Of a stretch of DNA of 64,000 nt, positions 3,124 through 31,990 are shown in pieces (positions within the stretch are counted from its first letter, which is position 1; each line of letters starts with the position of its first letter). The stretch spans positions 62,001-126,000 of the forward strand of contig NZ_JAKHSK010000012.1 in the NCBI RefSeq assembly GCF_023499215.1. Reading direction: 5' to 3'. The stretch comes from Zunongwangia pacifica (lineage in GTDB: Bacteria; Bacteroidota; Bacteroidia; Flavobacteriales; Flavobacteriaceae). Made by a program: the position numbers and the translations under genes. The notes beneath the pieces are model-generated. The model made no database searches. It was not told the DNA's origin and saw only the letters and a program-made list of their open reading frames with translations.

Positions 3124-3163
3124 TATTGTAACGAATGTAACTTAAGATTCGTGCAAAGATGAT

Positions 3164-3171
3164 TAAATTTG
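3164..3171 (+). promoter_or_regulatory. Possible -7 promoter box for the DUF983 gene
   Basis: TAAATTTG matches the Bacteroidota -7 consensus TAnnTTTG and lies 19 bases before the start codon at 3190. No TTG at the expected -33 distance is visible, so this is tentative. Confidence 0.3.
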
Positions 3172-3189
3172 TAATGCAAAAAAAATATT

Positions 3190-3600: not shown

Positions 3601-4643
3601 AATTTCTTCTGAAAACGTGCAATATCGACTTCTGGCGGTAAAGGGATATCGTCCTCAATAAAGTTTAGAAGTTTTTCTGAAAGTAAAGGAGCTATCAAAA
3701 CACCACGACTACCAAAGCCATTACAAATAAAAAGTCGGGGATGTTCTGGATGATTCCCTACTAAAGGTCTACGATCTGAAGTGGCAGGCCTTATCCCGGC
3801 AACCTGATCTACAATTTCGTATGTACAGGTAATTAGTTGATCTAAATCCCGCTGTAATTTTTCTTTTGCCTGTAAAGTTGGCTCCTGCGTTTTATCCTCA
3901 TGATTATAAGTCGCACCAACCTTATATAAATCATTTCCTAATGGAAGGATAAAAACTGAAGATTTCACCGCTTGTTTTAGTTGTAGATCCTCCGATTTAA
4001 TCACCAGATACTCGCCTTTATTTCCTCGTAGCGGCAAATAATTAAAATAAGGATTTTTCACTACGCCAAAGCCTTCACAAAAAAGAATATTCTTTGCTTC
4101 TACGCCATCATAAGAAACTGAATCTTCCTTCAATTTCAATTTTGTATAATCGAAACGTTCATTTTTTAATAGTTGGTGACTTTGAAGATATTTTTTATAG
4201 GAATTCACCAATAAATCAGTATCTAAAGCACCGGTTTTATCCACTTTTCCAAAAGAAAAATCACTAGGAATAAATGAATTAACTTCTCTGATCAGTTGTG
4301 TGTTTAAAAATGGAGATAGTCTAAAATTATCGGCAGCTTCAAACCAGTTATTTTGCTCTTCAACCGAATGAAATCTGCGATAAATATTAAAAGAATTTAA
4401 TAAATCCTCTCCCAGCTTTTTCTCGAGTTTCTCATAAAACGGAATCGAATAATTTATTTGCTTATCGGCTTCCCAGGCAAGTGTAAAGCGCTTTAAAATA
4501 ACCGGATTATAAATACCTCCTGCTACTTTTGTAGAAGTTTGAGAATCGTCTTCAAAAACAACAAAACTTCGCTTCCTTGCTTCTAAATGATTAGAAAGTG
4601 CAATACCACTAAGCCCTAATCCAACAACTATATAATCCAGCAT
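3582..4643 (-). CDS. FAD-dependent oxidoreductase (DAO family)
   Basis: This 353-residue protein has an N-terminal dinucleotide-binding fold, with glycines 8, 10 and 13 in VGLGLSG followed by an acidic residue at the end of the second strand. The DAO-family ending around 'AGIRPATSDRRPLVG' and 'GFGSRG' contacts FAD in relatives. It resembles glycine/D-amino-acid oxidases and the C-terminal half of MnmC, but it lacks the methyltransferase half of MnmC, so that name is not used. No signal peptide is seen, so it is probably cytoplasmic. The substrate is not evident. It converges with and slightly overlaps the DUF983 gene. Confidence 0.8.
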   Translation of the reverse strand: MLDYIVVGLGLSGIALSNHLEARKRSFVVFEDDSQTSTKVAGGIYNPVILKRFTLAWEADKQINYSIPFYEKLEKKLGEDLLNSFNIYRRFHSVEEQNNWFEAADNFRLSPFLNTQLIREVNSFIPSDFSFGKVDKTGALDTDLLVNSYKKYLQSHQLLKNERFDYTKLKLKEDSVSYDGVEAKNILFCEGFGVVKNPYFNYLPLRGNKGEYLVIKSEDLQLKQAVKSSVFILPLGNDLYKVGATYNHEDKTQEPTLQAKEKLQRDLDQLITCTYEIVDQVAGIRPATSDRRPLVGNHPEHPRLFICNGFGSRGVLIAPLLSEKLLNFIEDDIPLPPEVDIARFQKKFYKSSF

Positions 4644-4672
4644 AAATACATTTTAGTACTACAAATTAAGAA

Positions 4673-4702
4673 TAAAAAAAGCGCCCTTAAAAGGCGCTTT
4701 CC
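4673..4702 (-). terminator. Terminator after gldN
   Basis: The inverted repeat AAAGCGCC/GGCGCTTT is followed on the minus strand by a run of seven T. It lies 24 bases past the gldN stop codon and would end the gldKLMN transcript. The stem is strong and the T-run is in the right place. Confidence 0.85.
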
Positions 4703-4725
4703 AATTATTTATTAAGAATCAATTT

Positions 4726-5616
4726 TTAATAATTCCACATATCTTGTTCAAAATTGCGGATTTGCTCTTTAATTCTTTCCGACTCTAAAAGCTGCATAAA
4801 ACTATTATCAACAATATAATCATTGATTTGGCGATCTCCCTGCACGTTATCTTCTTTATAGATTACAGAATTAAACCTTCTTGAATTTAAAAGCTGATCG
4901 TAAGAAACCGTAGTATTATTGCCAATATAAGCTTTAGCTTTATAAAGCACTTCTCTAGCATCTGGATACCAAACCCAGAAAAGGTCTACAAGATCATTTA
5001 GCTCTGAATCGTCGATAAAGTTAACATCGGGAGCTCTTGGTGCAATACCTAAAATTCGATATTTAAGCTCTGCCTGTCGCTTATCAAAATACCAGATGCC
5101 GCGAATTTTATATTCCTGGATGTCTGCCGCACTTAAATCTCTACGATCAATAAACTGCTCTTCTACTTCCTGGCCGGCATTATACTGCTCAATTCCGTAA
5201 TCTGTAGTATCCACTCTTGATAGGGTGGCGCGAATATCTTTTAAAGTCCGTTTTTCAGTAAAATAAGAATCTGCATAAATATTTTCAATCTTACCCTCTT
5301 TAATGGCTCGAACTAGAACATCGTAAAGAGACCTTCTATTGGCAGAAATATTTAAAGTATCCACAGGATAATATAAAGGGAAATTCACACGTTCATCCAA
5401 ATCGATAATCTCCCAGGTACCTTTAGACCAAAGCACATCACGATCATCTACATAACCATATTCCAGAGGGCCATCGTTTGCAGCATCTACAAGTTCTGCT
5501 TCTGATGGTTTTCCTATATCCTCTGGCTTTTCTGCATTTAAAATATTAGCTGTTTGCGCTAAGCTGGAAAAGCCAACTAACAGAAACAAACTATATATTA
5601 TATATTTCCCTTTCAT
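4726..5616 (-). CDS. gldN: Gliding motility / type IX secretion protein GldN
   Basis: GldN is a periplasmic component that forms the outer-membrane-associated ring of the type IX secretion system with the lipoprotein GldK. The 296-residue product begins with a signal peptide ending near 'FSSLAQ' and continues with a mostly soluble domain containing YFTEKRTLKDIRATL and WYFDKRQAELKYRILGI, typical of GldN/PorN. It is last in gldK-gldL-gldM-gldN order, 18 bases after gldM and just before a strong terminator. That conserved order makes the assignment secure. No oddities were seen. Confidence 0.95.
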   Translation of the reverse strand: MKGKYIIYSLFLLVGFSSLAQTANILNAEKPEDIGKPSEAELVDAANDGPLEYGYVDDRDVLWSKGTWEIIDLDERVNFPLYYPVDTLNISANRRSLYDVLVRAIKEGKIENIYADSYFTEKRTLKDIRATLSRVDTTDYGIEQYNAGQEVEEQFIDRRDLSAADIQEYKIRGIWYFDKRQAELKYRILGIAPRAPDVNFIDDSELNDLVDLFWVWYPDAREVLYKAKAYIGNNTTVSYDQLLNSRRFNSVIYKEDNVQGDRQINDYIVDNSFMQLLESERIKEQIRNFEQDMWNY

Positions 5617-5634
5617 AATATTTTACTTTTCTTC

Positions 5635-7191
5635 TTAATTCGTAAGTTCTATAAATACCGGAGCGATCTTTTTAAGCTTATAACCACTATTGGTAGTTAA
5701 TGAAGCATCGATATCAAATATCTGAACAGTTTCACCTCTACCAGCTCTTCGCAATGCAGCCTTCGCAGCATTATCCAATCGGTTTCCACGAACTGTTACT
5801 GTTGGTTGTCCAGAAACTTTAAAACTAAATCCGGTAACCCTTAAGCCAATATCGAAATCGAAATCTGGTAACTCAGCACCAACTTCAGAGGCTTCCAAAC
5901 TGTTTCGTTGCATTTTAACCGATCCCGTTTCTCTTCGTATTGATCCAACAGGACTTGGAATATCTTTAATTCTGAACGTCGAACTAGACGGGTAACTTTT
6001 TCCATCTATGGTTCCTGTTACGTTGATCTTAACCTCTCTTTGCTGAAGCGTGGTCACATCCATAATGTAACTACTTCCGGAAGCTCTAGATAAACCTGGA
6101 GCGCTAGCCTGAACATTATTATCTGGAACACCAGCCATAGAAATAGTCAATGGGTTTTTAACACCACGGTATAACACATTCATTTTATCAGCAGAAATTG
6201 TTGCTGAATTTGGCTTTGGAATCACAGCAAATTTCTGGTTGACCGAAACCTCTATAGGCTCCTCCCCTTCATTAAATATAAGCTGTCCTGTAATGCTATG
6301 ATCTCCTGCATTTCCTGCCGGAACATTTAGCACAACTTTACCACCCTGAAGGGAATAATCACTTTCAGAAAGTGTTCTGCCATCTAATTTTAATTCAATT
6401 TTATTCGGCTTTGTGGTTTCGTCACTTCTCCCCAGAACAATTGCTCCATCAAAAGTTTCTCCCTGATAATAAGCAGACTTCTCAGTTTCTAATATCGTAG
6501 TATAATTACTCATAGAAACTTCATCACTTAATTGATCTTGTAACATTGCAGATAAAACATCATTCTCTGTTGTTTTTACATCAGATTGTAATTGCGTTAA
6601 CTGCGTAATAGAGGCGATTAAAGGAAATCCTTCGAAATTGTAAGTTAACCACGGCTTTTTAGTGCCTTCACTATCTTCTATTTCACCGGTATTAAATTTA
6701 CGTTCGATTTCACTATTTAATGAAGTAAAATCTTCGCCTAAAGTATTAATGAGCCCCTCACGATAAGTGTCTATTTTAGCTACAAATTCCTGCCCTGCTG
6801 GAGTTATTTTCCCTCCTGCAAAAAATTTTTCATCTAAAATATCAGGCTTATCCATAGACTGGTAATCCTCTGGATCATCTAACTCCGCAGTTAAATCATT
6901 TTTAACTCCTGCGATGTATGCGTCTAAATCTTGAGAAAGTTGATTAATAGTCTCTGCTTTTTGAGCCAATTCGGCATATTTCGCTGCCTGTTCATTTGCT
7001 TTAGACTTTAATCCCTGCATTGCCGCAGCATTTCTCTGCTCGGTAGTGGCGTTAGATTCCTCTAACTTTTCATTCATAGAGCCAAAGGCTACCAAAACCT
7101 CTTTCGACATATTAAGTGCCATCATTGCGATGAACACCAAATACATCAGGTTAATCATTTTCTGCCTTGGGCTTTGTTTTCCTGATGCCAT
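5635..7191 (-). CDS. gldM: Gliding motility / type IX secretion motor protein GldM
   Basis: GldM crosses the inner membrane once and reaches through the periplasm to the GldK/GldN ring. With GldL it forms the proton-driven motor of gliding and type IX secretion. The 518-residue product starts with the conserved N-terminus SGKQSPRQKMINLMYLVFIA, where the single transmembrane helix (about 12-30) begins. A long helical region and several beta-rich periplasmic domains follow, as in PorM. The gene lies 41 bases downstream of gldL. Length and order are normal for the family. Confidence 0.95.
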   Translation of the reverse strand: MASGKQSPRQKMINLMYLVFIAMMALNMSKEVLVAFGSMNEKLEESNATTEQRNAAAMQGLKSKANEQAAKYAELAQKAETINQLSQDLDAYIAGVKNDLTAELDDPEDYQSMDKPDILDEKFFAGGKITPAGQEFVAKIDTYREGLINTLGEDFTSLNSEIERKFNTGEIEDSEGTKKPWLTYNFEGFPLIASITQLTQLQSDVKTTENDVLSAMLQDQLSDEVSMSNYTTILETEKSAYYQGETFDGAIVLGRSDETTKPNKIELKLDGRTLSESDYSLQGGKVVLNVPAGNAGDHSITGQLIFNEGEEPIEVSVNQKFAVIPKPNSATISADKMNVLYRGVKNPLTISMAGVPDNNVQASAPGLSRASGSSYIMDVTTLQQREVKINVTGTIDGKSYPSSSTFRIKDIPSPVGSIRRETGSVKMQRNSLEASEVGAELPDFDFDIGLRVTGFSFKVSGQPTVTVRGNRLDNAAKAALRRAGRGETVQIFDIDASLTTNSGYKLKKIAPVFIELTN

Positions 7192-20425: not shown

Positions 20426-20752
20426 TCCATCACTCATCCAAAAAATTCAAAAGGCTGTCTTATTCATTTAAGACAGCTTTTTTTATGTCTAAATTTAAAA
20501 TTGAAGATGTTTCTAATAGAAATTAGGAAGCAAGCATACATCATCACAGTTAAATTCCATGAATAGAAAAAATCCCCTATCCCTTTAAACTACAGATAAA
20601 AAGTTCCTGAAACCCGAATTGAGATATAATGAAAACTATTGATATAATTCCCTATTAGCAGGAAGCACTTTGGCGTAAATATGATATAATCTACCTGCTG
20701 AAATTAACAAGTTTCGTAAAGAAGAAAATTAGTATTTTTTAAGACTGTTCTA
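20426..20752. other. groEL downstream spacer
   Basis: This 327-base stretch holds the groEL terminator at its left end. The rest is A+T-rich with three copies of GATATAAT (20623-20630, 20641-20648, 20683-20690) of unknown meaning. I see no gene in it. Confidence 0.6.
20451..20484 (+). terminator. Terminator after groEL
   Basis: GCTGTCTTA (20454-20462) pairs perfectly with TAAGACAGC (20469-20477), with a six-base loop followed by a T-run. It lies about 28 bases past the groEL stop. Confidence 0.9.
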
Positions 20753-20890
20753 TTAATGCAAAAAAGCACCCAAAAATCCAGCCTTAAAATCACTCCAATC
20801 CATAATTATCTGAAAAACAACGATTGCCAGAATAATTAGAACTGCCATTCTTAATTTCGCCTCTGGTTTTCCTTTCTGTTCAGTATCCAT
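20753..20890 (-). CDS. 45-residue membrane microprotein downstream of cutC
   Basis: This short reading frame encodes a charged N-terminus (MDTEQKGKPEAKLR), one hydrophobic helix at about residues 15-30 (MAVLIILAIVVFQIIM), then WSDFKAGFLGAFLH. The charge pattern predicts one membrane crossing with the N-terminus inside. It starts 38 bases after cutC on the same strand and is probably the last gene of that operon. The clean pattern of charged head, membrane helix and aromatic/glycine tail supports a real gene; I know of no function. Confidence 0.6.
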   Translation of the reverse strand: MDTEQKGKPEAKLRMAVLIILAIVVFQIIMDWSDFKAGFLGAFLH

Positions 20891-20928
20891 ATAAAAAACG
20901 TTTGGATTAGCTAAATTATAAAAAAATA

Positions 20929-21558
20929 TTAAAATTCACCAACAATTCGGCGTCCATGATAAGCCTGCGCACCGATATTTTTATGTATTTCGTCTAAATT
21001 TTCATTCGTAACCCGTCCCGCAGGCATGATTTCCAGTTTATTACCGGCTATCAACATCATTTTTTTTAATGTTGAAATTCCTTCTTTTGCGGTAGTTTTT
21101 CCACCAGAACTTAGAATAGTTGATATTCCATTAATAGCGGTTAATTCTTCAGTAGCCTTTAAAATATCTGGCGTTTCATCTATCGCTTTATGAATAACCA
21201 CTTTTAGTGGCTTTGAAAGTGCTGCAAGTGCAGCAATGCGTTCTACATCCAGAGTTTTATCCTTATTTAAAATTCCAAAAACCACACCTTCTACCCCAAG
21301 TTGCTTGCAATATTCTATATCCTGCTTCATCCCGTCAAATTCGACCTCAGAATATACAAAATCGCCTCCACGAGGGCGAATCATTACTCGAATTGGAATC
21401 TTCAGTTGTTGTTTGGCGCTCTCTATTACAGCTCTAGAAGGAGTAATCCCATCCTGTGATAAATCGGCACATAATTCGATCCGATCTGCGCCAAGCTTTC
21501 CAGCTATTATGGCTTCTTCTAAAGATTCTACACAGGCTTCTTTAATGAAATTGGTCAT
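20929..21558 (-). CDS. cutC: CutC family TIM-barrel protein
   Basis: A 209-residue TIM-barrel protein of the CutC family, named for copper homeostasis in Escherichia coli although its biochemical activity remains unclear. Motifs include EACVESLEEAIIAGKLGADRIELC, shown here as 'EACVESLEEA' and 'GADRIELC', then VMIRPRGGDFVYS and VIHKAID. It is somewhat shorter than the roughly 240-250 residues of many members, mainly at the C-terminus. It starts one base after the outer-membrane beta-barrel gene ends, so the two are coupled. In Bacteroidota, cutC can lie near glycan-degrading genes (recollection, not checked), which fits the upstream GH2 gene better than a copper role. Confidence 0.85.
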   Translation of the reverse strand: MTNFIKEACVESLEEAIIAGKLGADRIELCADLSQDGITPSRAVIESAKQQLKIPIRVMIRPRGGDFVYSEVEFDGMKQDIEYCKQLGVEGVVFGILNKDKTLDVERIAALAALSKPLKVVIHKAIDETPDILKATEELTAINGISTILSSGGKTTAKEGISTLKKMMLIAGNKLEIMPAGRVTNENLDEIHKNIGAQAYHGRRIVGEF

Positions 21559-21559
21559 T

Positions 21560-24196
21560 TTAAAAGCTAAATTTTAAAGTGGCCAGCACCTGCGATGGTC
21601 GTAATCGATAACTACTCTGCACATAATAATACTCGTTATTGTATGCATTAATAAACGCATCGGTATTCAGGATATTTCGCCAACTAAGGTTTAGATCCAT
21701 TTTTGGTTTTTCAAAAGTAAACTGATAGCCCAGGTTCACAAAATAATTATCGCCGTTATCGGATAACGAATTTCCGTAATATTCGCCACCGACACTTAAA
21801 TACTGATTATCTTTTGGATAAAAATAAAGATCAATCGTATGTTGCTGGGTTTCGATTTGTTGAAAATCGCTATCGTCAAAACCTGAAGTATAGGTTGAAA
21901 AATTAGCCGAGTAATTAGCAATTAACCAACTGGAAATTTCAGCATCTACACTTCCGCGCAAATTGAAACTTTTAGTATTCACCTCAGCCAGTATATTATT
22001 TAAAAGCTGCTGGCGCTTTGATATGTTATAGGAAGCGTTAAGCTTAAGCGTTGTTTTCATTTTCCTAAAATATTTACTTCCTCCTCCTCTAAAGCTATGG
22101 TTTTCGAAGTTATTATCGCGAGCTACAGCTTCTAAAATTGTTGTTCCGTTTTCACCAATAGTAGAACTGTACAATAAATTACTTTCAGAAAAATTGTAGC
22201 TATACGAAGCATTAAGAAATAACTGTTTTAAGGGATTTCTAAAATTTAACCCGGCGCTATAATTTTGCTGAATTTCTTCGGAAATTGGGGCGTTGTAACG
22301 ATTTAAATTTCGATAGCCGTTAAGCAAAAATCCGTAATATAATTGCTGAATTTCGCCAAAACCATATTGAAGTCTGGCTGAAACATGGGCTTCCCAATAA
22401 GCAGAAAGCTTCCTTTTTACATAAAAATCAGGCTCAAAAATAAAGCGATCCAGATTTCTGGTGTCTTCAAAATTTTCGTCTTCTAGCTGAAAACTTTTAA
22501 ATTGAAGCGGAGTGCTCAATCTTAAATTCCAGGTTTCCTCGATATTTTTAAAATTAATCGAATTTTTAAAGTAAACCGAACTTTGTAAAAATTCGGTTCT
22601 ATTTTTAAAATCGGTATCTAGTACCTCCTGCCCGTCTTCCAGAAAAATATCGGTATCTAATTGCTGATTCTGAATCGAAAAGCCAAATTTTGGCGATATG
22701 GTGAATTTACCGAGTGCTTTGGTAAACCCGGCTGAGTTATCGGTATATATTTTCCTTGAAGAAACTCGTTGTTTAATTTCAGCATAAGGATCACCATTAT
22801 TAAACACCTCTTCAAACTGTCCCGGTTGCACCAATAAATCCTGATTGCTTTCTGTAAACCCGGTATTCGAAGTAAAAGTGATCAATTGTTTTCCTACAGT
22901 TCTAAGCAGGCGTAAATCGTTTCTAATTCCCAAGAAAGGGTGAGCCAGCTGCTGCTTAATTTGTGCATCAGGCCGATCGATAAAACCGCGATTAGCATTC
23001 CAAGAACCATTAAATTCCAATTGATTTTTAAAGTAATTTTTATCGGCATTATTTTCTAAAGTGAGCTCTCCTTCTAACTTACTTACAAAGATATTATTAT
23101 TGGTTTTTTCAATCACATCAATCGTATCTGTAGGCGTAAAATAGCGTGTTTGGGTACTCCCGTCCTGCTGCTGATAATCATTGAGATAAGAAATATTAAG
23201 TTTTAGATCCATATCTTTTTTAACGCGCTGTAAAATATTGGCCGAACCTAAATGTACATTATTATCCAACCAACGTTCTGCCGAAAATGGAGGTTCGGAT
23301 ACATTCTGAATAGAAAGCCAATCGGTTTTATCGATATTAAAGTTTTCGCCAAAATATTTAATTGAAAAATTACGAATTTCGCCAGACACATCGCTCCCAG
23401 TATTATTGCTTTGATAGGTAACAATCGCCTGGCGTTTTTTAGTAAAGATCATAGGCGTTAGCTTTGTTTGCCAAAGCAAGGGCGCTGTACCCATTCCGGC
23501 AGTGGCCGTGCCACTAACAGTAACATCTTTTTTTAGCTTGATATTTATTGAAGCGCGCTCTGAAAATTCCAGACTATCCAAAACTTTTACCGGCTGGTGA
23601 TTTTCCAAAATCTCGACTTTAGAAACGGCATCGGCAGAAAGGTTATTATTCGCTAAATTATAGCGACCTTCCAACAAATCCAAACCTTCGATATAATATT
23701 TCTGAATGGGTTCATCTTTATAAAAAATCTGCCCGTTTGGCCGAATATCGATTCCAGGCAGCTTTTTTAAAATATCAGCAATTACACGATCATTTTTGCC
23801 TTTAAAAGCCGCCACAGAGAAACTAAGCGTATCGCCACGTTGTTGCAAAATTTCAGATTTTACTATTACTTCTTTTAGAGATTCTGAAGAAGGCGAAAGT
23901 TGCACTTCTAAGGCCTGAGATGTATTCTGAATAAACTTGCCAAAAGTAGCAAAACCGATATAGGAAACTTTTAAAAACAACGAATTGCTCTCACTTTTGA
24001 CTTTTACTTTAAATCTTCCGTTCGCATCTGAAATTCCATAAGCCAAAATCGAGGAAACCGAATCTTTACTGATCATCACCGTCGCCCCGCTTAGATTTTT
24101 ATTATGATCATCAAAAACCTGCCCCGAAATGTCAGTTTGAGAATATCCTTCAAAAACACCTAATATCAAGATTAATAAAAAAGATACCTTTTTCAT
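21560..24196 (-). CDS. Outer-membrane beta-barrel protein with carboxypeptidase-like and TonB-plug-like domains
   Basis: An 878-residue protein with a signal peptide (to about 'FEGYSQ'). A carboxypeptidase-regulatory-like beta-sandwich (about 22-105, DISGQVFDDHNKNLSGATV) and a plug-like domain (about 110-220, ADILKKLPGIDIRPNGQI) follow. A long C-terminal region alternates polar and aromatic residues and ends in phenylalanine (LATLKFSF), as outer-membrane barrels do. It is like a TonB-dependent receptor but without a SusD partner or an obvious TonB box. It starts one base after a GLPGLI gene and precedes cutC by one base. Pairing of such barrels with GLPGLI proteins suggests a joint role. The ligand is unknown. 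Confidence 0.8.
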   Translation of the reverse strand: MKKVSFLLILILGVFEGYSQTDISGQVFDDHNKNLSGATVMISKDSVSSILAYGISDANGRFKVKVKSESNSLFLKVSYIGFATFGKFIQNTSQALEVQLSPSSESLKEVIVKSEILQQRGDTLSFSVAAFKGKNDRVIADILKKLPGIDIRPNGQIFYKDEPIQKYYIEGLDLLEGRYNLANNNLSADAVSKVEILENHQPVKVLDSLEFSERASINIKLKKDVTVSGTATAGMGTAPLLWQTKLTPMIFTKKRQAIVTYQSNNTGSDVSGEIRNFSIKYFGENFNIDKTDWLSIQNVSEPPFSAERWLDNNVHLGSANILQRVKKDMDLKLNISYLNDYQQQDGSTQTRYFTPTDTIDVIEKTNNNIFVSKLEGELTLENNADKNYFKNQLEFNGSWNANRGFIDRPDAQIKQQLAHPFLGIRNDLRLLRTVGKQLITFTSNTGFTESNQDLLVQPGQFEEVFNNGDPYAEIKQRVSSRKIYTDNSAGFTKALGKFTISPKFGFSIQNQQLDTDIFLEDGQEVLDTDFKNRTEFLQSSVYFKNSINFKNIEETWNLRLSTPLQFKSFQLEDENFEDTRNLDRFIFEPDFYVKRKLSAYWEAHVSARLQYGFGEIQQLYYGFLLNGYRNLNRYNAPISEEIQQNYSAGLNFRNPLKQLFLNASYSYNFSESNLLYSSTIGENGTTILEAVARDNNFENHSFRGGGSKYFRKMKTTLKLNASYNISKRQQLLNNILAEVNTKSFNLRGSVDAEISSWLIANYSANFSTYTSGFDDSDFQQIETQQHTIDLYFYPKDNQYLSVGGEYYGNSLSDNGDNYFVNLGYQFTFEKPKMDLNLSWRNILNTDAFINAYNNEYYYVQSSYRLRPSQVLATLKFSF

Positions 24197-24197
24197 A

Positions 24198-25001
24198 CTA
24201 TTCCAGTTCTATCGGATTATTTTCTTTCTCCAGCATTTTGGTAAAGGCGGCTACCATTTTTTTATGCCATTCGGGATCCACCTTACGATGAGTGTTAATC
24301 CCTTGCGCCCGCACATAGGTAGGAGGGTCTCGACGATACTCATGTAATATTTCTGCAATATCTTCTTGGGTAGTTTTAATATATTGATTAAAATTTATCT
24401 TATAGGTAAGCGCAGGTGTTATCTTCTCCAATCCTATAAAAGAAAAAACGTAATCGTTCCCAGTGTCGGCAATTTCTAAAATCAAGCCAGGCAAGCCATT
24501 AAATTTATAAGGGCCGTCTGAAACTGGAATCTCTGTAGTAAACCAGGCCATATAATCTCGACCTGCAAATGATGTAGTAGCTTTTTGAACTTTATAATCT
24601 TTGATTATTTTTGTTTCTGAATGAATTTCCCAGTCAAAAAGACGTAATTCCTGCACGTAGAAAAAATCGGTCATTGGAACAAAAACCGAATTATACATTT
24701 TCGATGCTCCCTGATCTTTGATCGTTTTGGTAAAGAATTTTGTAACCGCCGCACGCGATGTGCTTCCGTTATTTCCTCTTCTAACAATTGGATTTGCCAA
24801 AACATAAGCTCTACTGGAAAATTGAGAAATATCATCACCTAAATACAGGATCATGTATTCTGATCTTTTTTCTGCTGAAGTAGAATCCAATTTAAAATCA
24901 AGCTTATAAGTGACCTTATAATTGAATTTTTCTTTCAATTCTTCTTGTGCTAAAATATTAACAGAGAAGAATATCAATAGCATAAATAGCTTTAGCTTCA
25001 T
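24198..25001 (-). CDS. GLPGLI family exported protein 1
   Basis: A 267-residue member of the GLPGLI (Porph_ging) family, of unknown function. A signal peptide ends near 'VNILAQ'. The family core is present: DWEIHSETK, VQKATTSFAGRDYMAWF, and SDGPYKFNGLPGLILEI. It ends with NNPIELE, a motif shared by all four copies in this window. It probably acts in the periplasm or at the outer membrane. It is directly coupled (one base) to the outer-membrane barrel gene and lies 26 bases after copy 2. It is the most diverged of the three adjacent copies. Confidence 0.88.
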   Translation of the reverse strand: MKLKLFMLLIFFSVNILAQEELKEKFNYKVTYKLDFKLDSTSAEKRSEYMILYLGDDISQFSSRAYVLANPIVRRGNNGSTSRAAVTKFFTKTIKDQGASKMYNSVFVPMTDFFYVQELRLFDWEIHSETKIIKDYKVQKATTSFAGRDYMAWFTTEIPVSDGPYKFNGLPGLILEIADTGNDYVFSFIGLEKITPALTYKINFNQYIKTTQEDIAEILHEYRRDPPTYVRAQGINTHRKVDPEWHKKMVAAFTKMLEKENNPIELE

Positions 25002-25027
25002 AATGATTTTTGATTGATGATGATAAA

Positions 25028-25822
25028 TTATGGCTGAAGTTCGATAGGATTATTTCGTCGCTTATACTTTTCGCTCAACATTTTCTTTGTTTCAGCTTCA
25101 ACCTCTTTGCTATTAAAACCAAATTTAACACCTGCATTTCTCATTGCGGCAAGTGGATCACGATCATTATCGTCTCTAAATTGATCGAGTTCTTTTTGAG
25201 AAACCATTTTATAATTATCCAAATTCAATAGTTTTTCTATTGGTTTTTTTAATTCCTGAAATCCGCTTAAAGTAAAATGATAGTGATTTTTAAGATCAGA
25301 TATCTCTAAGATAAGCCCCGGTAAACCGTTAAACTTATAAGGTCCGTCCGAAAATGGTAGCTCTGGCGCAAACCAGACGATATAATTTCGACCGGCAAAA
25401 GCACCTGTAGCTTTCTGAACGCTGAAGCCTAAAATTTCTCTATTTTCCGAATGAATTTTCCAATCAATCATTTTTAAGGCTTGTGAATATTTATACTTAT
25501 ATCGGTCTGCCGTAATTTTTTCAGCTAAAATAAGCTGATCCTCTCTGTAATTCTTATAAATCTTATAATGAAAATCGGTTTCCGGGGCGTTAAATCCTCC
25601 AATAGAATCTTCTACCGCTTTCCCTAAACTGGAATATAGAGAATGACCTTTCCCTAAATAAAGCACAACGGTTTCAGATAATATCGAATTCTCATCGGTA
25701 GAATCTTCCTGATATTCGAGTTGATAGGTAGCTTTATAATCGAATTCTTTCTTTGCTTTTTCCTGTGCTGAAATTTTAAAATAGAAAAATATCAGCATAA
25801 AAAATAGATTTAATTTCATCAT
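25028..25822 (-). CDS. GLPGLI family exported protein 2
   Basis: A 264-residue GLPGLI protein with a signal peptide ending near 'FKISAQ'. It is clearly a tandem duplicate of copy 3: both share YQLEYQ-DSTDENS, the stretch SDGPYKFNGLPGLILEISD, KNHYHFTL-GFQEL and the identical ending KYKRRNNPIELQP. They differ mostly in the middle segment (about 75-110) and the last third. The gap to copy 3 is 24 bases. The function is unknown; divergence between duplicates could reflect different partners. Confidence 0.88.
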   Translation of the reverse strand: MMKLNLFFMLIFFYFKISAQEKAKKEFDYKATYQLEYQEDSTDENSILSETVVLYLGKGHSLYSSLGKAVEDSIGGFNAPETDFHYKIYKNYREDQLILAEKITADRYKYKYSQALKMIDWKIHSENREILGFSVQKATGAFAGRNYIVWFAPELPFSDGPYKFNGLPGLILEISDLKNHYHFTLSGFQELKKPIEKLLNLDNYKMVSQKELDQFRDDNDRDPLAAMRNAGVKFGFNSKEVEAETKKMLSEKYKRRNNPIELQP

Positions 25823-25846
25823 ATTTTTTTGATTGACGATTATTAA

Positions 25847-26656
25847 TTAAGGCTGAAGTTCAATAGGATTATTTCGTCGCTTATACTTTTTAGTTAATTC
25901 TTTTCTTTGTTTAGCTTCCTCCTCTTCGTTCCAGCCAAATACAACCCCTGCCTTTTCCATTGTACCAATCGGATCGCGGTTATAATCGTCTCGAACCTGA
26001 TCAAGTTCATCCTGAGAAACCGCTTTATACTTATCCAAATTCAATAATTTATCCTGCGGTTTTTCTAATTCCTGAAATCCAGTGAGAGTAAAATGATAAT
26101 GATTTTTTAGATCTGAAATCTCTAAAATAAGCCCCGGCAAACCATTAAATTTATAAGGGCCATCAGAGAATGGTAGCTCTGGAGCAAACCAAGCGATATA
26201 ATTTCTACCGGCAAAAGAGCTCGTTGCTTTCTGAACGCTGAAGCCTAAAATTTCTTTATTCTCCGGTTTAATTTCCCAATCAATTATATTTAAATCTTGC
26301 TTATATTTTAATTCATATTGAAAAACCTTTTCGGCTAAAATAAGTTGGTTCTCCTTGTAATTTTTAAAGATTTTATATTTGAAATCGGTCATTTGATTAT
26401 ACTGGTCCATCCTCATCCCTTTAGGATTAGGCATATTCTCTAAAGAATCTTTAACCGCTTTACCTAAGCTGGAATACCGGGATTGAACATCGCCTAAATA
26501 GAGTACACCCGTTTCAGATTTCACGGAATTTTCATCGGTAGAATCTTGCTGATATTCCAGTTGATAAGCCGCCTTATAGGAATATTGAACATCGCCCTTC
26601 TGAGCATAAAACATCACAGAAAAACATAAGAAAAAAGGCATCAGGATAGCTTTCAT
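25847..26656 (-). CDS. GLPGLI family exported protein 3
   Basis: A 269-residue GLPGLI protein, the first of three in a row, with a signal peptide ending near 'VMFYAQ'. It shares most of its sequence with copy 2, including the core GLPGLILEISDLKNHYHF and the C-terminal NNPIELQP, but has a short insertion near residue 75 (NPKGMRMDQYNQM). An 87-base gap separates it from the GH2 gene. That gap carries a motif also found before copy 4 (26708-26727), so this gene may have its own promoter. Confidence 0.88.
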   Translation of the reverse strand: MKAILMPFFLCFSVMFYAQKGDVQYSYKAAYQLEYQQDSTDENSVKSETGVLYLGDVQSRYSSLGKAVKDSLENMPNPKGMRMDQYNQMTDFKYKIFKNYKENQLILAEKVFQYELKYKQDLNIIDWEIKPENKEILGFSVQKATSSFAGRNYIAWFAPELPFSDGPYKFNGLPGLILEISDLKNHYHFTLTGFQELEKPQDKLLNLDKYKAVSQDELDQVRDDYNRDPIGTMEKAGVVFGWNEEEEAKQRKELTKKYKRRNNPIELQP

Positions 26657-26707
26657 AAACTGAAATTTTCTCTAAGATGCCTATAAAAAACTTTCCAAGC
26701 AAGAAAT

Positions 26708-26727
26708 CAACTATTTTTTTAGTAATG
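26708..26727 (-). promoter_or_regulatory. Shared motif upstream of GLPGLI copy 3
   Basis: On the plus strand CAACTAT, a T-run and AGTAA; the minus strand reads TTACT-A-run-ATAGTTG. Nearly the same string occurs at 30413-30431 before GLPGLI copy 4. Both lie 50-62 bases upstream of the start codons. AATAGTTG resembles a -7 box, but no good -33 box is seen. Confidence 0.35.
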
Positions 26728-26743
26728 AAATTAAAAAATCAAG

Positions 26744-29374
26744 TTAATTAACCGGTATTAGCATTCGGTCTGTATTCCAGCCTTCTATCGATATTTGAAG
26801 ATTTTTCACTTTACTTTCTGGTGATTCCAACCTAATCTCTTTTGTTGCGCCTGGCACTATAGAGAAATAATTATTATCATAAAAGGTTGGGAGAATCCGC
26901 TCACCGGTTTCCGCATTTTCTAAAGAAATCCGGTTAAAAAAGGAAACCGTATTTTCTTCAGGATTGGTGATCTTTAGTTTAAATTTATTTTCAGCTACGG
27001 TCTCAACTTCAGCTTTAACTGTAGTTTTTGCTAAATGCTGTAATCCAGAATACGTTCCTGTACTATCTGGCAACCAATAGAAATTTTCATCTAAAACTTC
27101 CTGATTCCGATCTTTAATTTCTAATTTTAAAAACAAGCCTTCTTGCGCAGCAAGGGTATCTAATGGCTTTTTAAGCGAAAACATCTTTTTAACGCTAGCG
27201 CCTTCGATATACGAAAATACCTGAGTCAACCGCTTCTCTTCACCTTCCATATTATAGATTTTCACCCCAAGCATTAAATCATATTCGGCTCCAAAGCCAT
27301 TATTTACCAAATATACATCGCTGCTCACCGGGTTATACATGATATGTAATGGCTTACTACCTTCCCTGAGTCCAAATAAACAAGCATTAGGATCCAGATA
27401 GTAATCGTACATCTGCCCACGTAAAGCCGTCCATGGATTTTGGGTTTTCCAGATAATCGATCCTGTGTACCAGTCCCACATGTGTGCGCTAAAACCTTCC
27501 ATTAACGCACGATATTGATCATAATTTACCAACTGTGCTTTTTTCGCAAAATCTTCCATATTCTCTGGCGTGCCATAAGGCTCTAAAGAATTGCCGTAAT
27601 CGATATATTTATGATAGGTCCAAACGGGATCTTTTACCGCTTCAGTTCCTTCATATTCTATAGGCACGGTATAATTCTCCTTCGGCAGGAAACGCTTCAG
27701 ACTCACCGCATCACCTACACCAACCGAACCCACTTCCGAATTAAAAGGCCAGGTACGCTCTTCCCAAAAAGTAGAAATTTCCTGAATTCCATAAGGGCCA
27801 TCACCATTACCACCCTTAAAATTATAGGACATTTCATCTGAATTTGAATAGTCGATAAACCATCGTGTTCCATCCAATTCAGGTAAAATCTCATCTTTAA
27901 TGGCATGTAAAATATCTTGTGGCGGTGTAATCTCGTTACCACCACACCAAATGGCCAGCGAGGCATGGTTACGTAACATCTTGACTGCATCTGCGGCAGA
28001 CTTAATAAACAACTGGTGATCGTCTGGATATTGCCTGCGCGTCCACTGGTCGTCTTTTTTCTTAGGATCTACCCAACGTCCATTACAATCGCCAGACATC
28101 CAAAAATCCTGAATCACCAACATCCCATATTTGTCACAGGCTTCGTAAAACTCGGGTCGCTCTGGCAAAGCACCACCCCAAATCCTAATAAGGTTTAAAT
28201 TCATATCCCTGTGAAAACGAATTTCAGCATCATAGCGTTCTTTGGTGAAACGGAGCATAGCATCTGAAATAATCCAGTTTCCACCCTTTATAAAAATTGG
28301 CTGCCCGTTAACGAATATCTGCTTACTTCGAGTGTGCGCATTCCATTCGGTTTGAATTTCGCGGATTCCCACTTTTAAGGATTCTTTATCTGAAGTTTTA
28401 TTTTTTATTCGGAATTCTACCTTAGCGTCATATAAATTTTGCTCACCATAACCTGAAGGCCACCAAAGTTTTGGATTTTTAACTTCGAATTCTGGAAGCG
28501 CTACTAAACTTTCAGCATGCGCAGCAACATTTACCTCTTTTTCGATAATTTGATCTGCGATTTTAAAAGAAAGTATTCCTTCCACCGCTTTTGAAGTTGG
28601 GTTCTCAACTTCCGCGGTAAAAATAATTGTTGCCGGCTCCTGCTTTTCTCCCGGAAGCCTTTTTCCAGGCACTTTAGTAACTACATGCGGATGTTTAAGA
28701 TTTATAGCACCGGTTTTTTCGATAATTACTTTGTCCCAAATCCCGGTATTTCGATCTCGAATTGGCTGAATCCAATCCCAGCCGGCAACATATTGATGTG
28801 CCACGCCGCGTGCAATCGTGCCGTCGCCGCCCTGTCCGCCGTTTGGATTTCCAACATGCGGCGCAGGATAAACGATCACCGCCAGTCGATTTTGGCCATT
28901 TTCAGCAAGAAATTTTGTGATATTAAAACGTTTACGAAGAAACATCCCTTTATATTCTTCCTGGTTGACTTTCTTTCCGTTTAGGAAAATAGCTACACTA
29001 TAGTTTATTCCGCGGAAATTCAACCAAACCTGCTCATCTTTCTTGGCGCTCTCCTTAAAATCTTTTACAAACCAATAGGTATAATAATCACGACCAACAT
29101 CGTAGATATCGGGAATTTGTTCATTATTCATCCCAAAAAAAGGATCGGGGATTTCACCATTATTAAGCTGAGTGGTTAGGATCGTACCGGGAACAGTGGC
29201 ATTTTTCCAGTTTTCTATGGAAAAGGATCTTTTTGAAAGTTCTTCTCCTTTGGCATCTACCTCACCAATAGAAAGGGTTTTCCAACCTGAATTCAGTTCG
29301 TAATTTTGCTGAGAAAACCCCAAAAATCTTACTAAACTTAAGGTTACAAAAAGGAAGGTAATTTTATTGCGCAT
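26744..29374 (-). CDS. GH2 glycosidase, endo-beta-mannosidase-like
   Basis: An 876-residue exported GH2 enzyme: a signal peptide, an N-terminal sugar-binding jelly-roll (about 25-215), immunoglobulin-like domains, a TIM barrel (about 355-680) and C-terminal beta domains. The acid/base is predicted as Glu481 in CGGNEITPP and the nucleophile as Glu547 in NSEVGSVGV. These contexts, and the stretch RPEFYEACDKYGMLV, recall plant endo-beta-mannosidase (EC 3.2.1.152), which cuts Man-beta-1,4-GlcNAc in N-glycans. They fit that enzyme better than beta-galactosidases or exo-glucosaminidase CsxA. The gene sits between GLPGLI genes. GH2 is certain; the linkage is inferred from remembered family motifs. 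Confidence 0.82.
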   Translation of the reverse strand: MRNKITFLFVTLSLVRFLGFSQQNYELNSGWKTLSIGEVDAKGEELSKRSFSIENWKNATVPGTILTTQLNNGEIPDPFFGMNNEQIPDIYDVGRDYYTYWFVKDFKESAKKDEQVWLNFRGINYSVAIFLNGKKVNQEEYKGMFLRKRFNITKFLAENGQNRLAVIVYPAPHVGNPNGGQGGDGTIARGVAHQYVAGWDWIQPIRDRNTGIWDKVIIEKTGAINLKHPHVVTKVPGKRLPGEKQEPATIIFTAEVENPTSKAVEGILSFKIADQIIEKEVNVAAHAESLVALPEFEVKNPKLWWPSGYGEQNLYDAKVEFRIKNKTSDKESLKVGIREIQTEWNAHTRSKQIFVNGQPIFIKGGNWIISDAMLRFTKERYDAEIRFHRDMNLNLIRIWGGALPERPEFYEACDKYGMLVIQDFWMSGDCNGRWVDPKKKDDQWTRRQYPDDHQLFIKSAADAVKMLRNHASLAIWCGGNEITPPQDILHAIKDEILPELDGTRWFIDYSNSDEMSYNFKGGNGDGPYGIQEISTFWEERTWPFNSEVGSVGVGDAVSLKRFLPKENYTVPIEYEGTEAVKDPVWTYHKYIDYGNSLEPYGTPENMEDFAKKAQLVNYDQYRALMEGFSAHMWDWYTGSIIWKTQNPWTALRGQMYDYYLDPNACLFGLREGSKPLHIMYNPVSSDVYLVNNGFGAEYDLMLGVKIYNMEGEEKRLTQVFSYIEGASVKKMFSLKKPLDTLAAQEGLFLKLEIKDRNQEVLDENFYWLPDSTGTYSGLQHLAKTTVKAEVETVAENKFKLKITNPEENTVSFFNRISLENAETGERILPTFYDNNYFSIVPGATKEIRLESPESKVKNLQISIEGWNTDRMLIPVN

Positions 29375-29511
29375 AAAAGTTAGAGTTTAAGAACTTTCAA
29401 ATTGCTTAATAAATTAAAAAACCTAAACTTTTTTCGACAAACAGCGGCTTAGAAAAGCTATACGATTCTCACTTTTTTAAGAAAAGTGCTTCGCATTACT
29501 TAAAAATAAAA

Positions 29512-30351
29512 TCATTCTAATTCTATAGGATTGTTCTTTTTAGCTAATTCTTCATGGTATTTTTTAAGGTAATTCTTTTTTTCATCACCTTCTAAACCAA
29601 TAATAATCGTTTTTCCCCCTTCACCTACATAATTATTCACATAACTAATTGGATCGCTTTCATAAGTGGCTAGTAAATCCAAAAGTTCTTTCTTTTTAAT
29701 CTGTTTGTATTTATTAGGAATAATCTGATATTCTAAAGGATTAGCTAGTTCTTCAAAACCAGCGAATTCAAAAACATATTCGGCTTCAGTATCCTGTATT
29801 TCTAAAATCAAACCGGGTAAGCCGGCAAATTTATAAGGCCCGTCTGAAAGCGGAATTTCTGGGGTAAACCACGCCACATAATCTCTCCCTCCAAAACTTG
29901 TAGTTGCCTTTTGTACCTGATAACCCGCGATTTCTTTAGCATCTGGCTGTATTTCCCATTGTATATCATCTAAAGATTCCAGGTAATAAAGTTTATCACT
30001 TAAAAGTTTAATGCCGTAACCCATTTTATTTTCTGCCTTGTTCTTAAAGACCCGATAATTAAATTCACTCTTAGTCGCTTTCATTTTACTTTTCCACCTT
30101 TCAGAACCAACGTCCACAGCATTTTTAATCACTGCCATAGAATCTTTTAAAGCGACCCCTCTACTTAAAAATAAAGAAGATTCTCTATTTGCAAAAAGCC
30201 ACATCGTCTCTGATTTACTGGACTCCAGACCCGTAGAATCTAGTTTAAAAGTAAGTGTATAGGTGACGCGATAATTCAGTTTATTTTGAGCATTCAGCGG
30301 AATAACATAAAGTATAAAAAGAGAGAAAACGAAGATGATCTTATTTTCCAT
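29512..30351 (-). CDS. GLPGLI family exported protein 4
   Basis: A 279-residue GLPGLI protein with a signal peptide ending near 'VIPLNAQ'. It has the core VQKATTSFGGRDYVAWF and SDGPYKFAGLPGLILEI and the ending NNPIELE, closest to copy 1. It is the first gene of the minus-strand cassette, divergent from the SLC13 gene across 160 bases, and lies 137 bases before the GH2 gene. In that 137-base gap a small A/T hairpin (29470-29488) might weakly end its transcript. The function is unknown. Confidence 0.88.
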   Translation of the reverse strand: MENKIIFVFSLFILYVIPLNAQNKLNYRVTYTLTFKLDSTGLESSKSETMWLFANRESSLFLSRGVALKDSMAVIKNAVDVGSERWKSKMKATKSEFNYRVFKNKAENKMGYGIKLLSDKLYYLESLDDIQWEIQPDAKEIAGYQVQKATTSFGGRDYVAWFTPEIPLSDGPYKFAGLPGLILEIQDTEAEYVFEFAGFEELANPLEYQIIPNKYKQIKKKELLDLLATYESDPISYVNNYVGEGGKTIIIGLEGDEKKNYLKKYHEELAKKNNPIELE

Positions 30352-30511: not shown

Positions 30512-31990
30512 ATGAACAATAGCCTTAAACGTATCATCTTAACTGCCGGCCCATTAATTTTTGTCATATTTCAATTTTTACAGCCACCGGCAGATATGTC
30601 CCCACAGGCTTTTAATGTGCTAGCCGTAACGATCTGGATGGCGATTTGGTGGGTTACCGAGGTTATTCCTATTGCTGCAACCGCACTACTGCCTATTGTT
30701 CTTTTTCCCTTAAGCGGTGCTTTGGATATTGGACTTACTACCGCTTCTTACGGGCATAAGTATGTGTTTTTATACATGGGTGGTTTTTTTATCGCCGTAG
30801 CTATTGAAAAATGGAATTTACATCGCCGAATTGCCCTTAATATCATTAACCTCATTGGCACTAACATCAAGTTTATTATCCTTGGTTTTATGGTGGCCAC
30901 CGCATTTTTATCGATGTGGATCTCGAATACAGCAACATCGGTAATGATGCTCCCTATAGGGACGGCAATTATTACGCAATTAAAAGACAACCCAAAAACC
31001 AGTGAAAACGAAAATAAAACCTTTGGCAAAGCCCTGATGCTAGCTATTGCTTACAGCGCCTCTATTGGCGGAATTGGAACGTTAATTGGAACGCCTCCCA
31101 ACCTTGTTTTTGCCGGAATCGTAGAAGAATTATATGGTATTGAAATTAGTTTTGTAAAATGGGCGCTTTTAGGAATGCCCATCTCTATCCTGCTTTTATT
31201 TTTTTGCTGGAAATACATTACCAGTTTCGCCTTTAAATTTAACCAAACAGAATTTCCCGGCGGAAAAACAGAAATCAAAAGATTGCTTACCGAACTGGGC
31301 AACATAAGCATACAGGAAAAACGTGTTCTTATTATTTTTGTGCTTACCGCCCTTTGCTGGATTACGCGCTCATTTTTTCTTGAAAAGTTTTTACCAAATA
31401 TAGACGATACCATTATCGCGATGATGGCCGGGATAGCCTTATTCTTAGTTCCATCTGGTAAAAATAAAGAGAAACAAAAGCATTTATTAAGCTGGGAAGA
31501 AGCAGTTAAAATTCCATGGGGGATCATATTGCTTTTTGGAGGCGGTATGGCTCTTGCTAAGGCATTTAGTGATACAGGATTAGCCAACTGGATTGGGGAA
31601 CAATTGGTAAACCTGGAAAATTTACCGCTATTTTTACTCATCCTGATCTTAGTAGCCTCGGTAAACTTTTTAACTGAAGTAACTTCTAACCTTGCGACTA
31701 CCGCCATGCTTTTACCCATACTGGCACCAATGGCGCTGGCCCTTAACCTTCATCCTTATTTTTTAATGGTTGCCGCAACTTTAGCCGCCAGCTGTGCTTT
31801 TATGCTCCCTGTGGCCACACCTCCCAATGCTGTGGTTTTTGGATCTGGCTATTTAAAAATTGCCGATATGATGAAAACAGGCTTTTGGTTAAATATTATT
31901 TCCATTTTAATAATTAGCCTTATCATTTATTTTGCTTTACCGCTTATCTGGGACTTTGATCCGTATACCATCCCAAAGGTTTTTAAATAA
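30512..31990 (+). CDS. SLC13/DASS family sodium:anion symporter
   Basis: A 492-residue inner-membrane carrier with about eleven to thirteen hydrophobic segments. It belongs to the divalent anion:sodium symporter family, whose members import dicarboxylates, citrate or sulfate. The two inverted-repeat ion-binding hairpins are visible as WISNTATSVMMLP and TEVTSNLATTAMLLP; the second has SNL in place of SNT, a variation also known from other family members. It is divergent from the GLPGLI cassette and ends exactly where the convergent BNR gene ends, with no base between the stop codons. The substrate is not deducible. Confidence 0.88.
   Translation: MNNSLKRIILTAGPLIFVIFQFLQPPADMSPQAFNVLAVTIWMAIWWVTEVIPIAATALLPIVLFPLSGALDIGLTTASYGHKYVFLYMGGFFIAVAIEKWNLHRRIALNIINLIGTNIKFIILGFMVATAFLSMWISNTATSVMMLPIGTAIITQLKDNPKTSENENKTFGKALMLAIAYSASIGGIGTLIGTPPNLVFAGIVEELYGIEISFVKWALLGMPISILLLFFCWKYITSFAFKFNQTEFPGGKTEIKRLLTELGNISIQEKRVLIIFVLTALCWITRSFFLEKFLPNIDDTIIAMMAGIALFLVPSGKNKEKQKHLLSWEEAVKIPWGIILLFGGGMALAKAFSDTGLANWIGEQLVNLENLPLFLLILILVASVNFLTEVTSNLATTAMLLPILAPMALALNLHPYFLMVAATLAASCAFMLPVATPPNAVVFGSGYLKIADMMKTGFWLNIISILIISLIIYFALPLIWDFDPYTIPKVFK

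Follow-up and report, generated by a model that had tools for sequence, protein, structure and literature searches.

The conserved core of an eight-gene cassette in Zunongwangia pacifica is a pair consisting of genes for GLPGLI-family proteins and the gene for a TonB-dependent receptor (TBDT); the genes for a family 2 glycoside hydrolase (GH2) and a CutC-family protein that accompany this pair appear to be local additions. The cassette lies at positions 20753–30351, on the minus strand, of a 64,000-nucleotide stretch of contig NZ_JAKHSK010000012.1 (positions 62,001 to 126,000; hereafter referred to as the window). All eight open reading frames (ORFs) were present in the ORF list, in the transcription order GLPGLI-1, GH2, GLPGLI-2, GLPGLI-3, GLPGLI-4, TBDT, CutC and a 45-residue protein, and the gaps between them measure 137, 87, 24, 26, 1, 1 and 38 bases. 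An earlier note on this DNA had described just such a one-strand arrangement, with gaps of 1 to 137 bases and single bases on both sides of the barrel gene, and this description was borne out by the ORF list and the family matches. Likewise, the four GLPGLI proteins and the CutC protein recognized at that time scored well above the respective cut-offs of TIGR01200 (171.7 to 199.7 bits against 50; PF09697 was also matched) and PF03932 (187.9 bits against 23.3, E 2e-55). We propose, and give an even chance to, the view that the core of the cassette is a TonB-dependent uptake module in which the TBDT works with secreted, non-lipidated GLPGLI partners of bowl-like fold that are recognized through a C-terminal tail. 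Such a module would be self-contained and would have two parts, namely one TBDT and one or more GLPGLI proteins, the latter probably residing in the periplasm. A ligand would enter through the outer membrane by way of the TBDT and then be received, held or sorted by the bowls, and the expansion of GLPGLI arrays could widen the range of ligands. We found no prior description of the receptor-bowl pairing, the fold match or the tail, all three of which are results of computation, and our searches of open-licence papers returned neither a description of the GLPGLI-TBDT pair nor a function for the curated GLPGLI family. Being tied to a receptor clade, having a known fold and carrying a C-terminal tag that can be tested, the GLPGLI proteins now present an experimentally defined question.

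GLPGLI genes recur beside a TonB-dependent receptor gene

The pairing was examined in three sets of loci. In 40 relatives, the 126 GLPGLI proteins above the cut-off form 65 arrays, and at least 46 of these arrays are followed on the same strand by a TBDT gene, the farthest at a distance of 644 bases (at least 46 of 55 if the genome G028 is set aside); the count is a lower bound since it was made with the first 86 entries of the receptor table. The second set consisted of 80 genomes sampled evenly across the phylum Bacteroidota; it includes the genome of the window and, again, G028, and its receptor ends were estimated by extending the open frame. GLPGLI proteins above the cut-off were found in 18 of these genomes, and 22 of 39 arrays were paired with a TBDT (22 of 29 without G028), the GLPGLI gene preceding the TBDT gene in 15 cases and following it in 7. 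Counted by genome, 17 have both partners, 1 has only GLPGLI, 4 have only the TBDT and 58 have neither. The third set comprised 80 barrel loci from named genomes across the Bacteroidota, several of which are cut by contig ends. Here, 77 of 83 TBDT genes have a GLPGLI gene within 735 bases upstream, in 42 cases within 47 bases, and four of the six that lack one start less than 450 bases from the end of the available sequence.

The same 80 loci define what does not belong to the core. GH2 was found in one of them, from Z. atlantica, which is also among the congeners examined below; CutC occurs at three, one from Z. atlantica and two from Salegentibacter. The idea of one conserved GLPGLI-barrel-GH2-CutC cassette is therefore not supported: the pair recurs, and the whole cassette does not do so outside the genus. 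What did survive from the earlier note is its suggestion of a TonB-dependent system that is not of the SusCD type, which is the best reading of the data, as a TBDT without SusD that is tied to GLPGLI recurs widely. The unpaired arrays weigh against this view of the pair. There are 19 in the relatives, 10 of which belong to G028 and 9 to other genomes, and in the phylum sample the 10 arrays of G028 and 7 of the 29 others lack an adjoining TBDT gene.

Three further observations concern the make-up of such loci. The genome of the window itself has a second GLPGLI-receptor pair, on contig C11 (positions 2144–5699 of that locus), with a different GLPGLI tail and located near a transposase and a phage-type integrase. 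Two congeners have a single receptor gene preceded by eight (L183) or seven (L185) GLPGLI genes with different endings. Downstream of the receptor gene, Empedobacter (L111) and Algoriella (L118) have ORFs of about 753 residues.

GLPGLI proteins are predicted to share the fold of the PNGase F-II NBL domain

The structure predicted for GLPGLI-4 (267 residues; 24198–25001, minus strand), the protein encoded next to the barrel, has a mean predicted local distance difference test score (pLDDT) of 90.2 and a predicted template modelling score (pTM) of 0.86. When this model was compared to the PDB with Foldseek, the six best matches (E 7e-10 to 3e-8) were PNGase F-II and 7zgn, a PNGase acting on plant and insect N-glycans that we take to be the Bacteroides massiliensis enzyme of PMC9522356. 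The VIA aligner placed both matches in the N-terminal part of these enzymes, with Z 17.0 over 173 residues at 3.1 Å for 4r4z_A and Z 16.0 for 7zgn_B, the next class down having a Z of 10.5. Profile searches pointed in the same direction. Against PF22252, which describes this N-terminal domain (NBL) and has a cut-off of 27.6 bits, GLPGLI-4 scored 30.6, GLPGLI-1 27.6, GLPGLI-2 22.6, GLPGLI-3 22.8 and the paralogue on contig C11 43.4, and a profile of the GLPGLI alignment, searched against the PDB, found PNGase F-II (E 5.5e-4). This alignment of 94 sequences, which also served for the model and for conservation, combines the four proteins of the window with 90 of 98 non-redundant GLPGLI proteins; the eight that were left out are one each from L055, L064, L087, L111 and L119 and three from L059. 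Four residues of GLPGLI-4, G163, P164, F167 and L170, are invariant in the alignment and fall in the motif GPYKFNGLPGLI (24480–24515, minus strand).

On the strength of the predicted structure, the GLPGLI protein would be a stand-alone version of the NBL, or bowl, domain of PNGase F-II (PDB 4r4x and 4r4z), with a weaker likeness to the LolA/RseB class of folds. In contrast to PNGase F-II, GLPGLI proteins stand alone, without the catalytic domain (PF09112/PF09113 were not found in the four proteins at E 0.01), they are usually encoded with a TBDT, and the C-terminal part that bears their clade-specific tail lies outside the aligned range of residues 25–223. The authors of the NBL structures regarded the fold as unique to the two enzymes (PMC9522356, in excerpt), and the function of the domain is described as unknown in PMC9522356 and PMC12381499 (both in excerpt). 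The GLPGLI-TBDT link thereby offers a first hypothesis for the role of the NBL domain. One published result speaks against assigning ligand handling to this fold: removal of the NBL domain left the activity of PNGase F-II unchanged (cited in the excerpt of PMC9522356), so that the domain has no shown ligand. The description of GLPGLI proteins in the earlier note, as proteins for which no function is known, agrees with the outcome of our searches as far as function is concerned and no longer applies to structure.

The distant resemblance to the LolA/LolB and RseB/MucB class is relevant to an alternative in which GLPGLI proteins are LolA-like periplasmic chaperones that assemble their own TBDT or load it with lipid, the tail marking the client. 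The model of GLPGLI-4 weakly resembles the half-barrel fold of this class at Z 7–10 (9.5 for LolA and 9.1 for RseB), GLPGLI proteins appear by eye to be exported, a simple lipobox pattern is present in just 2 of 128 of them, and the tail matches the receptor clade, as described below. Sequence identity to the class is 5–13% in the rows obtained, and GLPGLI proteins differ from it in having a TBDT partner and in forming multicopy arrays. These arrays, with up to 8 copies, exceed what one client should need, and the two SusC-type TBDTs encoded in the window have no adjoining GLPGLI gene. We consider the chaperone function unlikely. That a LolA-level match (Z of about 9) barely exceeds the value that the aligner states as typical of unrelated models also counts against including a distant LolA kinship in our own interpretation.

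The C-terminal tail of GLPGLI proteins follows the receptor clade

All four GLPGLI proteins of the window end in a similar peptide: NNPIELE in GLPGLI-1 (29515–29535) and GLPGLI-4 (24201–24221), and NNPIELQP in GLPGLI-2 (25850–25873) and GLPGLI-3 (25031–25054), all on the minus strand. In GLPGLI-4, N262 and E265 of this tail are at least 90% conserved over the 94 aligned sequences. Such 'NNPIEL'-type endings characterize the GLPGLI proteins that belong to one clade of TBDTs, here called clade 1. Defining the tail as N, any residue, a hydrophobic residue and E within the last 16 residues, we found it in 123 of 130 GLPGLI proteins from arrays beside 79 clade-1 TBDTs, compared to none of 48 beside 24 other TBDTs. 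Receptor scores in this comparison are either at least 792 or at most 257, and the duplicate loci L036/L052 and L046/L188 were counted once. The correlation also held per genome among the GLPGLI loci that had been fetched: all 10 genomes that have a clade-1 receptor also have tailed proteins (37 of their 80 GLPGLI proteins), one of these receptors, that of G041, having an intermediate score of 499, compared to 1 of 32 genomes without such a receptor (1 of 70 proteins). The lone tailed protein in the latter group, which ends in GNNFEIKIGG and is encoded in G017, is probably a chance match to the pattern.

Two genomes have tailed GLPGLI proteins that are not encoded beside the receptor gene. G028 has one clade-1 receptor gene without an adjoining GLPGLI gene, and 8 of its 11 scattered GLPGLI ORFs (L189–L198 and L248) encode the tail; in G095 a tailed GLPGLI gene is located 8 kb from the clade-1 receptor gene. 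That tailed proteins persist in G028 although their genes are scattered points to a constraint other than linkage. Other receptor clades go with other common endings, such as IRIGG or IRIGN, EWE, Gly/Arg-rich and aromatic ones. When the ending classes were placed on a TBDT tree of 88 pairs, for which the tail was defined more loosely and 20 of the 80 loci from named genomes were used, 17 label changes were needed, compared to a mean of 45 after shuffling, and none of 200 shuffles gave a number as low; in 36 of the 88 pairs the ending belongs to no named class. Within individual groups we noted that the GLPGLI proteins of one receptor clade (L043, L041, L215, L220 and others) have a Gly/Arg-rich tail, and those of another group IRIGG or IRIGN.

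These patterns suggest that the clade-specific tail might enable a GLPGLI protein to recognize the TBDT to which it belongs, or else a factor particular to that receptor. A bolder version, which we put forward tentatively, would have a large class of TBDTs, so far undescribed, that are served in the periplasm by GLPGLI proteins as their dedicated partners, with recognition by clade-specific C-terminal peptides (NNPIEL, IRIGG, EWE, Gly/Arg-rich and others) even where the genes are scattered, and would explain the bowl domain of PNGase F-II as a GLPGLI partner that the enzyme has captured. Several points have to be set against recognition by the tail. The pattern was defined after the sequences had been inspected. 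In G106 a GLPGLI protein of a TBDT outside clade 1 ends in NSPIESEFE and counts as tailed under the looser pattern. The correlation partly reflects the shared ancestry of a TBDT clade and a GLPGLI clade, which shuffling does not remove. Finally, the last block of GLPGLI-4 has a pLDDT of 91 in the monomer, so the tail could pack on its own domain instead of docking on a partner.

Linked divergence and apparent exchange of the pair

The location beside groEL is shared with loci of Salegentibacter, Christiangramia and Gillisia, and at this site identities differ between neighbouring genes. In Salegentibacter salarius and S. agarivorans the receptor is 82–83% identical to that of the window and the proximal GLPGLI protein 79–80% identical to the nearest Zunongwangia copy, the distal GLPGLI proteins being 41–52% identical; in S. 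lacus the receptor at the same groEL site is 57% identical. Similar pairs located elsewhere, in Leeuwenhoekiella, Salinimicrobium, Salegentibacter and a Flavobacteriaceae bin, have receptors that are 75–84% and GLPGLI proteins that are 64–82% identical. The simplest account of these identities would be that GLPGLI and TBDT genes are exchanged as a block, as the sequence comparisons suggest. Within genomes, the distances between paralogous receptors correlated with those between their GLPGLI proteins (r 0.42 over 38 comparisons, one locus, L171, being dropped; permutation p-value = 0.003). A linked evolution of the two proteins is weakened by the genome G015, which taken alone gave a p-value of 0.053 for its 7 loci and was not significant at 0.05.

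Apparent block exchange at the groEL site, together with cassette arrays that vary from 2 to 7 copies among congeners, would also fit GLPGLI proteins that protect the periplasm, or act as decoys, against toxins or phages entering through the TBDT, with arrays diversifying and the pair being swapped horizontally. Typical immunity genes are not known to be spread over a whole phylum as this pair is. Moreover, defence-like genes are few in the 25 commonest neighbour families, for which no defence library was searched: phage-type integrases make up 3 of 108 downstream neighbours, and C39-peptidase exporters 2 of 108 downstream and 2 of 115 upstream. A protective role seems improbable to us.

The receptor is a predicted TonB-dependent receptor without SusD

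The 878-residue barrel protein (21560–24196, minus strand) matched Pfam only with its N-terminal carboxypeptidase-regulatory domains, and its assignment relies on a model with a pLDDT of 88.7 and a pTM of 0.77. Full-length Foldseek searches related this model to FoxA, FpvA and other TonB-dependent receptors (E 1e-16 to 1e-15, template modelling score (TM) of about 0.3). With VIA, the siderophore receptor PirA gave a Z of 13.8 over model residues 158–829, and several of the receptor matches include the plug. The first 100 residues resemble the N-terminal extension (NTE) domain of SusC (9hfj, VIA Z 12.2), and a profile match to SusC homologues was obtained as well. Between the NTE domain and the plug lies the TonB-box-like stretch LKEVIVKSE (23852–23878, minus strand), of which E109, V110 and K113 are invariant in 8 aligned homologues and in which residues 105–113 have a low pLDDT; this is the position at which a TonB box is expected. 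The larger receptor set comprised the TBDT of the window and 54 of 56 further TBDTs.

The predicted barrel thus resembles a TBDT in its plug-in-barrel architecture, in agreement with the TonB-receptor-like protein of the earlier note, and has no SusD, since family searches found none among the eight proteins of the cassette. With SusCD systems it shares the SusC-like NTE domain, plug and barrel; in contrast to them, it is paired with a bowl protein that lacks a lipobox, and not with a surface lipoprotein lid. Two results tell against the assignment: the global superposition on FoxA is loose (TM 0.33), and the single best VIA row is the barrel of the Mtr complex (Z 14.7), which is no TBDT.

GH2 and CutC as probable local additions beside an N-glycan locus

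In the five other Zunongwangia genomes the site keeps the SLC13-type symporter gene, at least two GLPGLI genes, the receptor gene, CutC, the small protein and groESL. The number of GLPGLI genes in the cassette varies, with 5 in G001, 4 in G002, 3 in G003, 7 in G004 (Z. atlantica) and 2 in G005, compared to 4 in the genome of the window. The GH2 enzyme (876 residues; 26744–29374, minus strand) has the expected Pfam domains, including Ig_GlcNase, and resembles beta-mannosidases and exo-glucosaminidases, its best relatives in the PDB being CsxA-type exo-glucosaminidase (E 2.8e-69) and beta-mannosidases (E of about 1e-45). Its gene is found at the site in four of the six genomes (that of the window, G001, G002 and G004) and is absent from G003 and G005. 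A search of the whole G003 genome revealed no homologue at E 1e-40, and in G005 one was found elsewhere, with 30% identity.

The CutC-family protein (209 residues; 20929–21558, minus strand) scores below the cut-off of the NCBIfam equivalog for CutC (163.4 against 311). Outside the genus, CutC was found in 14 of 40 relatives, and in 10 of these 14 an Asparaginase_2 gene (glycosylasparaginase family) lies within 8 kb, for which we calculate a chance expectation of about 1% per genome. If PNGase F, GH20, GH92 and beta-mannosidase-like GH2 are added, an N-glycan-type gene lies nearby at 13 of the 14 loci, the exception being G009; family counts among the CutC neighbours cover 93 of 145. In the phylum sample, Asparaginase_2 was near CutC in only 4 of 17 cases, and the link thus stands out most clearly in relatives that share the order. 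In several of these (L127 and L129–L140) CutC lies amid glycosylasparaginase-type, GH20, beta-mannosidase-like and GH92 genes. PNGase F was dropped as a general neighbour of CutC, since only L129 carries it, as judged by similarity to one PNGase F reference. It is plausible that the CutC protein of the window is a helper in N-glycan use, and its recurrence among N-glycan genes in the relatives questions the copper-protein label in these bacteria. Among titles of open-licence papers we found no link of CutC with N-glycans, glycosylasparaginase, polysaccharide utilization, mannosidase or PNGase except PMC5700972, in the excerpt of which predicted network links connect VirK with CutC, nixI and asparaginase in Xanthomonas.

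Upstream of the cassette, and beyond the symporter gene, the minus strand from 31991 to 64000 contains genes for a BNR sialidase-like protein, GH35, two GH29, GH3, two SusCD pairs, two GH92, GH20 and GH130 enzymes, and others. Beyond the edge of the window, genes for an SSF symporter and for a third GH92 enzyme extend the locus, so that in full it comprises three GH92, GH20, GH130, two GH29, GH35 and GH3 enzymes, the BNR sialidase-like protein and two SusCD pairs. This set fits N-glycan breakdown, in connection with which PMC10154615 lists GH20, GH29, GH35, GH2 and GH130, and PMC9522356 lists GH92 (both in excerpt). Like known N-glycan loci of Bacteroidota, the region thus has GH92, GH20, GH29, GH35, GH130 and GH2 beside or in the cassette; a GLPGLI-TBDT module does not appear in the excerpts of these two papers, and at most of the GLPGLI-TBDT loci examined such enzymes are not among the frequent neighbours. 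At the Zunongwangia site, the genes of the proposed module lie in a single run with that for CutC and, depending on the species, with that for GH2, and because an N-glycan locus adjoins this run, the ligand here may be a breakdown product of N-glycoproteins.

A more specific alternative, close to what the earlier note had proposed, is a dedicated cassette for mannose or N-glycans, in which the glycan would be bound by GLPGLI proteins and taken up by the TBDT, GH2 would cleave Man-beta-1,4-GlcNAc, and CutC would deal with what is left. The N-glycan locus next door, the link of CutC to glycosylasparaginase-type and beta-mannosidase genes in relatives, the single-base gap before CutC, the resemblance of GLPGLI to a domain of an N-glycan-releasing enzyme, and the GH92 and SusCD genes that also precede the pair in Salegentibacter salarius (L049) all speak for it. 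Against it stand the absence of GH2 from two of five congeners and the rarity of GH2 and CutC at the 80 barrel loci. In addition, the 25 commonest flanking families (the best 25 of 131 and 116) revealed neither a glycan theme nor a common function; these counts cover 108 of 131 downstream and all 115 upstream neighbours, and the commonest families were the beta-lactamase family (4 of 108 downstream) and SLC13-type symporters (5 of 115 upstream). A dedicated glycan cassette is unlikely in our view; what is supported of the mannose-glycan reading is the N-glycan setting given by the adjoining locus. A general N-glycan role for the GLPGLI-TBDT pair was not retained, on account of the same 25 flanking families.

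Gene layout and minor features

GLPGLI-1 (279 residues; 29512–30351, minus strand) is the first gene of the cassette; its product has a signal peptide as judged by eye, no lipobox, and the C-terminal sequence ...KKNNPIELE. It is followed, beyond the GH2 gene, by GLPGLI-2 (269 residues; 25847–26656) and GLPGLI-3 (264 residues; 25028–25822), both on the minus strand and identified, like GLPGLI-1, with TIGR01200 and PF09697. The divergent gene for a DASS/SLC13 symporter (30512–31990, plus strand) is kept at the site in all five congeners, and loci of Salegentibacter and Christiangramia likewise have such a gene upstream of the pair; SLC13-like upstream ORFs were found at L049, L050, L053, L066 and L068. 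In S. salarius (L049, 5826–7295) this SLC13-like gene is present as three ORF pieces.

Scans for transcription signals performed no better than shuffled sequences, with 36 promoter matches compared to 33.9, 4 matches to a Bacteroidota-type promoter pattern compared to an expected 3.8, and 7 terminators compared to 7.6, apart from a hairpin at 20449–20482; an operon is thereby neither supported nor split. This hairpin is located between groEL and the 45-residue gene, groESL being encoded downstream of the cassette on the opposite strand, and it could terminate transcription from both sides.

The 45-residue protein (20753–20890, minus strand) has one hydrophobic stretch, and its ORF is kept in all six Zunongwangia genomes. 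In all 15 pairwise comparisons the third codon position has the most differences, although genomes from the two deeper branches, when compared with each other, differ more in amino-acid-changing codons than in silent ones. Judged by this conservation, the ORF behaves like a real gene. In a search of 60 genomes, clear matches to its product were confined to the six Zunongwangia genomes. Weak matches (E 0.003–0.07), some of which are neighbouring small ORFs, were seen at L167 and L168, in the genomes G021 and G008.

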